Assembly: GCA_031082285.1 (NCBI GenBank)
Contig: JAVHLK010000025.1
Span: 1 to 59,057 of the forward strand
DNA: 59,057 nucleotides
Source: Desulfomonilaceae bacterium
GTDB taxonomy: Bacteria > Desulfobacterota > Desulfomonilia > Desulfomonilales > Desulfomonilaceae
Direction of reading: 5' to 3'
The notes beneath the pieces were generated by a model that ran no database searches, was not told the DNA's origin, and saw only the letters and a list, made by a program, of their open reading frames with translations. The position numbers and the translations under genes are program-made. Below are positions 10,443 through 51,278 of the stretch, piece after piece. How positions within the stretch are numbered: position 1 is the first letter of the stretch; each line of letters starts with the position of its first letter.

Positions 10443-11233
10443 CTGATGTCGCTCGGCGCCGATTGTTTCGTCTCGTGATGAAGTTCCATTCTTCGACGCA
10501 GGCAATCGGCCAGCAAGATCGACGCGGACTGGGATACGCTCAATGACTCGATCGACCCCACCATTGGTATGGATACGGCGAGATCGCACTCTTCTCTCAC
10601 TAGGCGCCTCAATCCCTTGCCTTCGGAACCGAGCACCAACGCGATCATGCCGGACAGATCCACGGAATAACAGATGTCCCCTCCTTTGGAATCCGCCGCG
10701 TACACCCAGAATCCCGTCTCTTTGAGCAGGCCGATGGTTCGCACAAGGTTCACCACCCTCACCACCGGCACATGAGCCGACGCTCCCGCCGAAGCCTTTT
10801 CCGCCACCGGTGTTACGGGTGCGGCACGGTCCTTGGTGAGGACGACTCCTTGCGCACCCAGACATTCCGCGCTGCGGAGAATCGATCCCACGTTGACCGG
10901 GTCCTGTACCTCATCCAAAAGAATTATGGGTCCCCTTCCCGGGGCCGGTTCCTCGATAATGCTCTCGAAATCGACATAGGGAAATGACCCTACCCGAGCG
11001 GCCACTCCCTGGTGATGCGGTGATCCCGTCAGGGAACGCATATCGTCGGCCGATACGTGAGTGAGCGGAAGCGTTGAATCCGCGGACAGAGACCTGAGTA
11101 CCGGCGGGATTGCAGCTCCCCTCGCAAGGTAAACCTCGTCAATCCGCCTTCTCCCCGCTTTCAACGTTTCAACAACGGGGTGAACGCCGTAAATGACGGT
11201 CCGACCACGCTCGGACGATTTCTTCCTGGTCAA
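10439..11233 (-). CDS. rlmB: 23S rRNA 2'-O-methyltransferase RlmB (SpoU/TrmH family)
   Basis: 264 aa. An L30e-like substrate-binding domain (residues 13-80, starting [20 protein letters not shown]) is followed by a SPOUT domain (98-250). SPOUT motifs are visible: motif 1 [20 protein letters not shown], motif 2 [15 protein letters not shown], motif 3 [21 protein letters not shown]. RlmB methylates G2251 of 23S rRNA in E. coli. It overlaps rpoZ upstream by 4 bases and the 129-aa gene downstream by 4 bases. A close paralogue such as TrmH cannot be excluded, but the N-terminal extension favours RlmB. Confidence 0.85.
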
Positions 11234-11475
11234 GACGATTTCGAGTCTATGACGACTTCAGGTCCTTCCTCGGGTATTTCCCGACTCGGTTCTCTCGCGG
11301 TGACGTGCCCCCTTGATATTTCTCTCAATGCCATGACCACTTCCCTGTTATCTCTGTCATGGACCATGACGGGAGCTCCACGCTTGAGTTCCTTGGTCCT
11401 CTTCGAGGCCAGGATCACCAATGCGAAACGATTCTCAACCTTGTCCAGACAATCTTCAACCGTTACACGTGCCAT
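11230..11475 (-). CDS. rpoZ: RNA polymerase omega subunit
   Basis: 81 aa, full length. The omega signature [22 protein letters not shown] is followed by [12 protein letters not shown] and the conserved (N)[10 protein letters not shown] helix. Omega helps fold and hold the beta-prime subunit. It follows yicC by 16 bases and overlaps rlmB by 4. In most proteobacteria gmk lies between yicC and rpoZ; it is absent here. Confidence 0.93.
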
Positions 11476-11491
11476 TTGAAACGTCTTTCTA

Positions 11492-12367
11492 TCATTCGAT
11501 GTTCTGCGTTTGTTCGCGGATCTTTTCCAGTTCCGCCTTGATGGTTACCACTTTTCCGGCAATATCGGTCGAGGCCGACTTCGACCCAACGGTATTAACC
11601 TCTCTATTGAGTTCTTGCAAGAGAAAATCGAGTTTTCTGCCCAAGGGCGAGCCCTGCTCGCCGAAAGAAAGAAACTGACCGATGTGGCTTTCCAGCCTGA
11701 TGAGTTCCTCGGTAATGTCCGAACGATCGGCAATCAAAGCCACTTCCTGAAGAAGCCTGTCCTCGTCGAGGCCGGTTCCTCCGGTCAAGTCCCTCACTCT
11801 CCTTTCCAATCGTTCCTTGGCCGCAACGGTGACTTGCCCCACCAGCGGCGCTATTTCCCCAGCGGTTTGTCGGATTACGGCCAGCATCTCTTCGATGTTG
11901 CGCCACAGAGCAGCCCCCTCTGCCGATCTCATCCGATCGATCGCATCAAGGGCATTGTTCAGGCTCGTCTCTATGATCGGCCATTCCTCTTCAACCGCAT
12001 CCTCCTTTTCAACGGGAATCACGATTTCTTTGAGCGTCAGCATGTCGGATACCGTTATCGTGCCCTCCAGCCCCAACGATTCTCTCATCCGAGACAGGCA
12101 TGCATAATAGCTTGTCGCAAGACCCGTGTCGAGGGTCACGTCCATGAGCCCCGATTTACCCCCTACTCGCGTCACGAGCACATCCACTTTTCCTCGGTGG
12201 ATCTTCTCGGAAATTAACCGTCGTACCCTCGGTTCAAAGCCCGCGTACATCTTGGGAATCCGCAATGAGATGTCCAAGAAACGGTGATTCACCGACCTGA
12301 TCTCGCTCGTTACCTCCACATCGCCGGCCGAGTGCCGTCCTCGACCGAAACCGGTCATGCTTTTCAC
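11492..12367 (-). CDS. yicC: YicC-family endoribonuclease
   Basis: 291 aa, the usual YicC length. The start is a GTG at 12367 giving (M)KSMTGFGRG, the classic YicC N-terminus, 8 bases after the DUF4416 stop. The N-terminal YicC domain ([16 protein letters not shown]) is followed by the C-terminal DUF1732 region ending [26 protein letters not shown]. YicC proteins are recently described ribonucleases, and this gene commonly lies beside gmk and rpoZ. The alternative ATG at 12358 would cut off the conserved Ser. Confidence 0.88.
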
Positions 12368-49464: not shown

Positions 49465-51057
49465 TTACGCGACCCAAACGGATTCCACGTACGATCCCCC
49501 GAAGTCCACGACGATCTTGGGTTGGTTGGCTTCAAGATTCCACGATACGAAAAAGCTGAGTCCTTGCAATAACGGTTCCTCTTCCGGACGGCAGTGCGCG
49601 TGCACCCATTCGGAGCTCTTCCGAACCGTGGTCGTTATCAGCTTGTCCACCTTCACCGACGCGTTCATCGCGCGCAGGGACGGACTGCTTTGCAATTGGT
49701 CAACCGCCTCTTCCCAATGAATTCCTTCCACTTTTCGCCGCAACACGTACGCGTTCCCACGATCTCGTATAATCAAGAGGGGGGGGGTGGTTCCGATTCT
49801 TGCATTCTTCACCCGCATTCCTCTTGTTTCCGATTCGATCCGATGGAGAAAATCCATACGTTTGTGCAATTCGGGAATCATTCGGGCCTGAGCTCTCTCG
49901 AAAATAAAATTTTCGCCTTGGAGGCTGATCTCCTTCAAGCGTGTCGGGTCGAACCCCATGTCGAAGAGGTCCCCTATGGTGAGCGTGTGCGCGGACGATC
50001 TTCCTTGCTCTTCCAACCAGGCCACGAGCCTGGGTCTGCGGTAGTTGGGCAGAGACTCTATCATCCGAGCCGGGTGCTTCTTGAAAACCTCGGGCAGATG
50101 CAGCCAAAGTTCCCTGTCGCCTGCGACAAAAGACGGCTGATCCGCAAGATCACGCGGAGCGTACGACTGTGCCGGCAAAGCTCGGATCTCGGGATGCAGA
50201 ACGATCTGACCGAGCGATTCACCGCCCGTGTACCCGAGGAGTTGCGAGATCCTCCGTTTGAAGCCGAGGAGCTTTGTCACGTACCGTGTGAACATGAACC
50301 TCATCAGGGAATCGGATTCTCCGCTGAAGATTCTCTCCTCGAAATACGTTAAGAGTGCGGAATAGAGATCCTTGAATTCCTCGATGGTGCGTCGGACCAT
50401 GAGTTCGTTGTCGCGCATGTCGATGACGTGTCGCTTGCGCTTGAGGTGGTAGACGAGTTTGGAGATCGCGTCCTTGATCTCTCTTCCCTCGAGGTTGCGG
50501 GGCACGTACGCCATGTAGAGCCCTTCCGCGTCCCTGGGCGTGACGCCTGTGAACTCCTCGACCGGTTTCCAGTCGAGTTTGCGATAGATGTCGTACGTGG
50601 GATCGTCTTGGGGAATGATGTTGTCCAGCAGACCTACCGAGGATTTATCATCCAGGAAGTCTCGAAAGGCTTTGAGAATTCGGTTCCCCAGCCCCTTGTT
50701 GCGGTACGGTGCGGCCACCTCGACGTACACGAGGTAGTAACACGGAATCGGCTTGTTCAGGTAGAGCATGTTCAGCCTGGCGAGGTTTTCGCCGGTTTCC
50801 GCGTTGATCTCAAGGACCTTGAACCCGTTTCGATAGTCTCCGGAGGTGAGACGGTCGATCTTGGCACCAGAAACGGTCGCATCCACCAGGTTCCACAATT
50901 CGCTGAAAAGGTCGGCCACTATGGGCGAATCGGCTGACCGCCGGCGTGCACCTTCACTGATCAAATCTATGAGAGCGAGTCGGTCATTGAGCCCGAGTCG
51001 CTTCTCTTCATGAATGTTGTCGTCGTTGGAGATGGATTCGATTGAAGATGTCCCCAT
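49465..51057 (-). CDS. GNAT-domain fusion protein under apparent Phe/Tyr attenuation
   Basis: 530 aa from the ATG at 51057 with AAAGGACGG upstream. Residues about 95-190 are a GNAT acetyltransferase domain: VYVEVAAPYRNKGLGNRILK has the acetyl-CoA loop R119-N-K-G-L-G124, and DPTYDIYRKLDWKPVEEF is the last strand-helix. The remaining 340 residues are not recognised; they are helical around 215-300 and beta-rich at the end (LSFFVSWNLEANQPKIVVDF). No signal peptide. The N-terminal 90 residues (LNDRLALIDLISEGARRRSA) are acidic and helical. Upstream are a promoter, leader peptide and terminator. I know of no aromatic amino-acid gene with this structure, so the control suggests an unrecognised link to Phe/Tyr or to translation. 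Confidence 0.75.
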   Translation of the reverse strand: MGTSSIESISNDDNIHEEKRLGLNDRLALIDLISEGARRRSADSPIVADLFSELWNLVDATVSGAKIDRLTSGDYRNGFKVLEINAETGENLARLNMLYLNKPIPCYYLVYVEVAAPYRNKGLGNRILKAFRDFLDDKSSVGLLDNIIPQDDPTYDIYRKLDWKPVEEFTGVTPRDAEGLYMAYVPRNLEGREIKDAISKLVYHLKRKRHVIDMRDNELMVRRTIEEFKDLYSALLTYFEERIFSGESDSLMRFMFTRYVTKLLGFKRRISQLLGYTGGESLGQIVLHPEIRALPAQSYAPRDLADQPSFVAGDRELWLHLPEVFKKHPARMIESLPNYRRPRLVAWLEEQGRSSAHTLTIGDLFDMGFDPTRLKEISLQGENFIFERAQARMIPELHKRMDFLHRIESETRGMRVKNARIGTTPPLLIIRDRGNAYVLRRKVEGIHWEEAVDQLQSSPSLRAMNASVKVDKLITTTVRKSSEWVHAHCRPEEEPLLQGLSFFVSWNLEANQPKIVVDFGGSYVESVWVA

Positions 51058-51103
51058 GATCACCGTCCTTTTGTCGATCTCACGTGCCGGGGGCCGCCGG
51101 CAA

Positions 51104-51132
51104 TAAAAAAAGCGGAGCATCTGCTCCGCTTT
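51104..51132 (-). terminator. Attenuator terminator ahead of the GNAT gene
   Basis: On the minus strand AAAGCGGAGCA-GA-TGCTCCGCTTT followed by TTTTATT: an 11-bp stem with a U-run. It lies 28 bases after the leader-peptide stop and 47 bases before the GNAT ATG. Its 5' arm AGCGGAGCA can also pair, 8 of 9 bases, with TGCTGCGCT at the end of the leader frame (51170-51162), giving a possible antiterminator. Confidence 0.85.
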
Positions 51133-51159
51133 GTATTCCGTTATGTCGATCCGTCACAC

Positions 51160-51228
51160 TCAGCGCAGCAGGGCCGTGGTTCTCCTCTGAAAATAAAAAT
51201 AAAAGTAGCTGCGGAACGTGACGCTCAT
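51160..51228 (-). CDS. Phe/Tyr-rich leader peptide of an attenuator
   Basis: 22 codons, ATG at 51228, TGA at 51160-51162, with GAGGG eight bases upstream. Residues 5-13 are FRSYFYFYF, so seven of nine are Phe or Tyr; the rest is MSVT before and QRRTTALLR after. It is followed by the terminator at 51104-51132, the classical layout of pheA or pheST-type leader attenuators. Ribosome stalling at the Phe/Tyr codons would free the TGCTGCGCT segment to pair with the terminator's 5' arm. A ribosome reaching the stop codon would cover that segment and allow termination. Confidence 0.8.
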   Translation of the reverse strand: MSVTFRSYFYFYFQRRTTALLR

Positions 51229-51249
51229 ATCTTTTCCCTCACATCTTTC

Positions 51250-51278
51250 TTTCTATCCGTTTGCAGACGCCTTGTCAA
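51250..51278 (-). promoter_or_regulatory. Promoter of the leader peptide / GNAT transcript
   Basis: On the minus strand TTGACA (51278-51273), 17-base spacer, TAGAAA (51255-51250). The start would fall near 51243, giving a leader of about 15 bases before the leader-peptide ATG. Confidence 0.7.

Follow-up and report, generated by a model that had tools for sequence, protein, structure and literature searches.

The minus strand of the 59,057-nt stretch of DNA analyzed here (the window) very probably carries a ribosome-mediated transcription attenuator for one gene of the aromatic amino acid regulon, with charged Phe- and Tyr-tRNA as its signal. The parts of this switch are present ahead of the gene and conserved at orthologous loci, their pairing is locus-specific, and the gene is linked to pheA through operons of related bacteria. 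By nearly every feature that can be tested in sequence, the switch appears to be an ordinary leader-peptide attenuator. The new part is its target, which belongs to an undescribed family composed of a GNAT domain and approximately 340 further residues.

Leader region and its predicted RNA pairings

All elements of the region lie on the minus strand. A promoter-like sequence, TTGACA-17-TAGAAA, occupies 51250..51278 (TTGACA at 51278-51273, TAGAAA at 51255-51250). A consensus promoter scan gave no sigma-70-like site for the leader region at its threshold, because TAGAAA lacks the final T. The RBS GAGGG (51240-51236) precedes a leader ORF of 22 codons, MSVTFRSYFYFYFQRRTTALLR, which extends from the ATG at 51228 to the TGA at 51160 (51160..51228). 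Its codons 8-13 (51190..51207) read Tyr-Phe-Tyr-Phe-Tyr-Phe and are the predicted site of ribosome stalling. The promoter, the RBS, and the leader frame with its Phe/Tyr run can be read directly in the sequence, as the preliminary description had reported. The controlled gene (530 aa, 49465..51057) starts with the ATG at 51057, and its upstream neighbor is divergently oriented.

Segment 1 (51208..51223) lies at the start of the leader ORF, and segment 2 (51152..51171) comprises the leader end and the nucleotides past its stop. Segment 3 (51119..51132) is the terminator 5′ arm, AAAGCGGAGC, together with the loop, and segment 4 (51102..51118) is the 3′ arm, GCTCCGCTTT, together with the U-run. 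The terminator (51132-51109) has a 4-nt loop and is followed by the U-run as described before, but its stem has 10 bp and not the 11 bp originally assigned. Segment 2 pairs either with segment 1 or, as the antiterminator, with segment 3. The pairing of TGCTGCGCT with the terminator 5′ arm had been given correctly as 8/9; when extended, it amounts to 9 pairs with one mismatch. The parts that the preliminary description had named as a complete attenuator are thus there, but it had overlooked the stem between segments 1 and 2, in which leader nt 6-21 pair with nt 60-77 (51223-51208 with 51169-51152) through 16 pairs at approximately −24 kcal/mol. Folding of the region, a check proposed at that stage, and duplex prediction both gave this protector stem for the ribosome-free leader, which an attenuator of the textbook type requires. 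All three classical pairings (1:2, 2:3, and 3:4) are therefore present at the window locus. In total folding energy, the region does not stand out from shuffles (z −0.45), so the case stands on arrangement and conservation instead of energy. The Rfam leader-peptide and T-box families gave no match above the gathering score; three weak and unrelated matches were all below it.

Stalling, read-through, and the response to Phe and Tyr are predicted from this layout as follows. When charged Phe- or Tyr-tRNA is scarce, the ribosome would stall on codons 8-13 and cover segment 1. Segment 2 would then pair with segment 3, the terminator would not form, and RNA polymerase would enter the gene. When charged tRNA is ample, the ribosome would arrive at the leader stop on segment 2, the 3:4 terminator would form, and transcription would stop near 51102. 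If the leader is not translated, 1:2 should form and the terminator should win again.

No row of six TWY codons came up in 5.9 Mb of sequence simulated with the same dinucleotide composition. Across the entire genome (5.6 Mb), this pattern is found elsewhere at two places only, and each of them seems to lie opposite a Lys-rich stretch within a longer frame. On both strands of the 59-kb window, the present locus is the only one with an aromatic leader and a terminator. A scan for five TWY codons in seven related genomes gave fewer matches than the reversed control pattern and was uninformative.

Conservation and pairing at orthologous loci

Among 395 sampled genomes of the phylum, 31 encode an orthologue of the 530-aa protein, and Desulfomonile records contain it as well; in the window's own family, 16 of 18 genomes have one. 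As a leader we counted a frame of roughly 10-40 residues in which some stretch of nine has five or more Phe/Tyr/Trp; together with a terminator, it had to lie within 350 nt of the gene. The attenuator reading passed the comparison of orthologous upstream regions that had been suggested at the outset, for which orthologues without leader or terminator had been named as the refuting outcome. Leader and terminator are kept directly upstream in 23 of 36 orthologous loci versus 3 of 337 neighboring control genes (Fisher p = 2e-24, which overstates the number of independent cases as the loci are kin). Two of the three control matches are aromatic-operon genes elsewhere, one ADTH-synthase-like and one DUF362, both in L050. 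Five more loci have the leader further upstream, one gene, one fused domain, or one operon away: it precedes a metallo-beta-lactamase gene (L009/L044), genes in which metallo-beta-lactamase and GNAT are fused (L012, L013), or the first gene of an aro operon (L017, L019). In L021 and L030, the gene is located behind pheA and the contig stops short of the operon head. Six orthologues (L008, L014, L016, L018, L020, L029) have no convincing leader at the head of the unit; four of the six keep the terminator. All 11 further same-family loci that were examined have both leader and terminator, and six of them appear to repeat L031-L036, which were already counted.

TTGACA or a near match recurs in most orthologous loci, approximately 40-55 nt ahead of the leader start. 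This recurrence argues against the hairpin being a mere terminator of a small RNA or of a stray upstream transcript, with the gene's own promoter located downstream. The negative result of the promoter scan would be in line with such an arrangement, but leader, terminator, and alternative pairing are kept jointly in several families of the phylum; the divergent orientation of the upstream neighbor also speaks against it. We give this explanation hardly any probability and prefer an attenuator that responds to charged tRNA.

The aromatic run is kept in the orthologous leaders, while the order of F and Y, the spacing, and the flanks differ freely (YYYYF, FYYYFYF, FFFFFVF). As only the run is kept and the rest of the leader varies, this fits the sensing of codons and not of the peptide. 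An arrest by the nascent chain itself, similar to TnaC or Erm leaders and in response to another ligand instead of the tRNA supply, could draw on the arginines after the run and the LR end, which several leaders have in common. However, the LR end encodes part of segment 2, and a run with such variable order, spacing, and flanks is unlike a stalling motif. Peptide arrest is hence a very improbable explanation, and codon sensing remains the preferred one.

RNAalifold recovered only the terminator, as 1:2 and 2:3 slide in register. We therefore used a swap test, which compares the 1:2 and 2:3 pairing between segments of the same locus with that between segments exchanged among loci. In group 1 (16 loci), the native segments paired better than the swapped ones, with means of −17.7 vs −13.5 kcal/mol for 1:2 and −17.5 vs −14.0 kcal/mol for 2:3 (permutation p = 5e-5 in either case). 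In a second group of seven loci, neither pairing was significantly better than swapped in the within-group comparison; most terminators of this group have a GGGCCATGGGC-type arm, and the antiterminators repeat the 3′ arm. Stem 1:2 is weak or absent in some orthologues, with L004, L010, L033, and L034 among the weak ones. The terminator 5′ arm is nearly identical across the group-1 orthologues. A G-C for A-U compensation occurs in the terminator of L003, and an extra G-C pair in those of L005, L010, and L155. The covariation that had been proposed as a check is weak when taken column by column, because the terminator hardly differs between loci and the register of the other stems shifts; for 2:3, 76% of the cells were paired and covariation was indistinguishable from the shuffle control. 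Together with the three pairings at the window locus and the conserved leader and terminator, the swap test upholds the initial view that this is attenuation of the textbook type.

The GNAT protein and its link to aromatic operons

The 530-aa protein has an N-terminal GNAT domain at approximately residues 60-190 with the acyl-CoA motif RxxGxG at 119-124, of which R119, G122, and G124 are invariant in 33 orthologues. With Pfam PF00583, the window protein scores 17.0 bits and misses the cut-off of 20.7 bits, which the L048 orthologue exceeds (25.0 bits); 31 of the 33 family members match PF00583 at E≤0.1 (best 1e-9). The intact motif and these matches agree with the earlier naming of the target as a GNAT-fusion gene. 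It shares the motif and the family match with the GNAT acyltransferases of PF00583 but differs from them by the approximately 340 extra residues and, sometimes, a metallo-beta-lactamase domain in front. These residues match no Pfam or NCBIfam family, and a profile search of solved structures gave weak matches of the GNAT domain only (best E 0.055). A model of the whole protein from seven sequences had a mean pLDDT of 53, which is too low to use, and its Foldseek matches carry no weight. The C-terminal 186 residues were modeled with a pLDDT of 75. The best listed matches of this model are mostly or all kinase-like and could be due to chance; toward kinase-like and aminoglycoside phosphotransferase structures, Z is at most 7.9 and the Foldseek E no better than 1.8e-3, which is below confidence. 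Neither this gene nor its leader turned up in a search of the open-access literature.

A metallo-beta-lactamase-fold domain is fused N-terminally to the GNAT protein in three loci (L042, L045, L065), and in L044 the metallo-beta-lactamase is a separate gene just upstream of the GNAT gene. An aromatic leader was seen ahead of the metallo-beta-lactamase/GNAT pair in L044, L045, and L065.

In four genomes of another Desulfobacterota family (G215, G192, G319, and G337; loci L048, L050, L051, and L059), the GNAT gene is located directly behind pheA. These operons include ADTH-synthase-like and DHQS-II genes, other aro genes, or trp genes. For L048, Pfam assigns chorismate mutase (CM), prephenate dehydratase (PDT), and ACT domains to pheA and identifies a DeoC-type aldolase (ADTH-synthase-like) and 3-dehydroquinate synthase II. 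Further operon genes resemble aroD, aroE, aroA, aroK, aroC, and trpE, G, D, and C; the aro and trp names were assigned by inspection and blastp among each other. The operon heads of G215 and G192 have the leaders MDQLHHLNFSSGFYFYWFFYAGICPLPRADH (FYFYWFFY) and MDQLRAFNFGSGFNFYWFYYALVYPLRLADR (FNFYWFYY), each with a terminator. The GNAT gene of G258 has its own leader, MGQPRHFDFSGGYYFYWFWYAKVYPPFLVDR, which is closely similar to these two operon leaders, as if the leader had moved together with the gene. F/Y/W leaders with terminators also precede most pheA/aro regions examined in the same genomes (L094-L106, L108), and aromatic synthesis in these Desulfobacterota seems to be under attenuation control in general. 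The DUF362 gene at L050:7570-8718 (−) has its own Tyr-rich leader, MFDYYYYLQAIHLCA, approximately 178 nt upstream and a strong terminator, and a DUF362 gene comes after the GNAT gene in the aromatic operons of L048 and L059. Hence, the DUF362 protein may be a second unrecognized member of the regulon.

Two side observations concern the same gene clusters. In L048, a nitronate-monooxygenase-family gene with no obvious role in an aromatic operon is located between DUF362 and trpE (10742-11803, +). In the window's genome, a prephenate dehydratase match (L092:9253-9777, +) is found behind a trpE-G-D-C-F cluster and away from the GNAT gene; the 18-kb stretch of L092 has no leader with at least five aromatic residues and a terminator.

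Because related bacteria keep the gene right behind pheA, we assign the GNAT family to aromatic amino acid metabolism, and count the gene as a new member of the aromatic amino acid regulon in Desulfobacterota. Its product is most likely an acyl-CoA-dependent enzyme, proposed on account of the intact acyl-CoA motif, with a part in restoring the supply of Phe/Tyr via synthesis, salvage, or uptake. A specific guess at the reaction would have a poor chance of being right. A role of the GNAT protein as a TyrA replacement was considered and dropped, as most genomes that have the gene also encode TyrA.

In two genomes with the gene and its leader, G097 and G224, no PheA/prephenate dehydratase, CM_2 chorismate mutase, or TyrA was detected; G097 has chorismate synthase. 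These could be incomplete drafts, or there could be another route to Phe and Tyr. Unless the drafts are incomplete, the two genomes are a poor fit for a helper of PheA and TyrA. They would be easier to reconcile with a real attenuator whose GNAT protein acts in translation or tRNA charging, by acetylation of tRNA or aminoacyl-tRNA, and not in amino acid supply. Such a role is favored by the known GNAT enzymes with tRNA or charged tRNA as their substrate and by pheST, a classic example of an operon under attenuation. Against it, the gene is found in the four genomes behind pheA within aro/trp operons and not beside tRNA or synthetase genes, and no synthetase-like neighbor was noticed in the loci of the family. 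A role in translation is therefore improbable. The preliminary description had left the function as aromatic amino acid- or translation-linked; the first half is supported by the position behind pheA, whereas the second has no specific support. Within the preferred assignment to Phe/Tyr supply, one tentative and rather unlikely version is that the family is an unrecognized enzyme, e.g., of an acyl-CoA-dependent salvage or alternative route, which can do without PheA and TyrA, as it would in G097 and G224, and acts jointly with a metallo-beta-lactamase-fold hydrolase in some lineages.

Two independent lines, regulation and gene order, place an uncharacterized family of many anaerobic Desulfobacterota in aromatic amino acid metabolism. 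An anonymous "GNAT family" gene thereby becomes a specific, testable hypothesis, and the family may supply a step or a control point in organisms with the alternative ADTH/DHQS-II entry to the shikimate pathway.

Comparison with known attenuators

The pheA, pheST, trp, and his operons of Escherichia coli are controlled by leader-peptide attenuators with an ORF of regulatory codons, the stems 1:2, 2:3, and 3:4, and a U-run terminator. The present region has the same short ORF rich in regulatory codons, the three stems, and the U-run terminator. It differs in the mixed Tyr/Phe run, in its undescribed GNAT-family target, and in matching no Rfam leader family.

A putative attenuator has been listed ahead of the aroA′-aroB′-aroQ/pheA-aroF-tyrA-trp supraoperon of Desulfovibrio vulgaris (PMC1173090, Table 7), likewise a deltaproteobacterium in that classification and with the same kind of aromatic operon. 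The F/Y/W leaders ahead of the aro operons described here are of the same kind. No GNAT gene is named in that entry, whereas the GNAT gene described here either has an attenuator to itself or is carried in the operon behind pheA. The uORFC-13-1 motif ahead of aroF consists of a promoter, a uORF with at least one Phe residue, and an adjacent terminator (PMC8632094). Promoter, Phe-codon uORF, adjacent terminator, and a gene of the aromatic pathway are common to both cases. However, uORFC-13-1 controls DAHP synthase and has at least one Phe, whereas the leader described here has a Phe/Tyr run.
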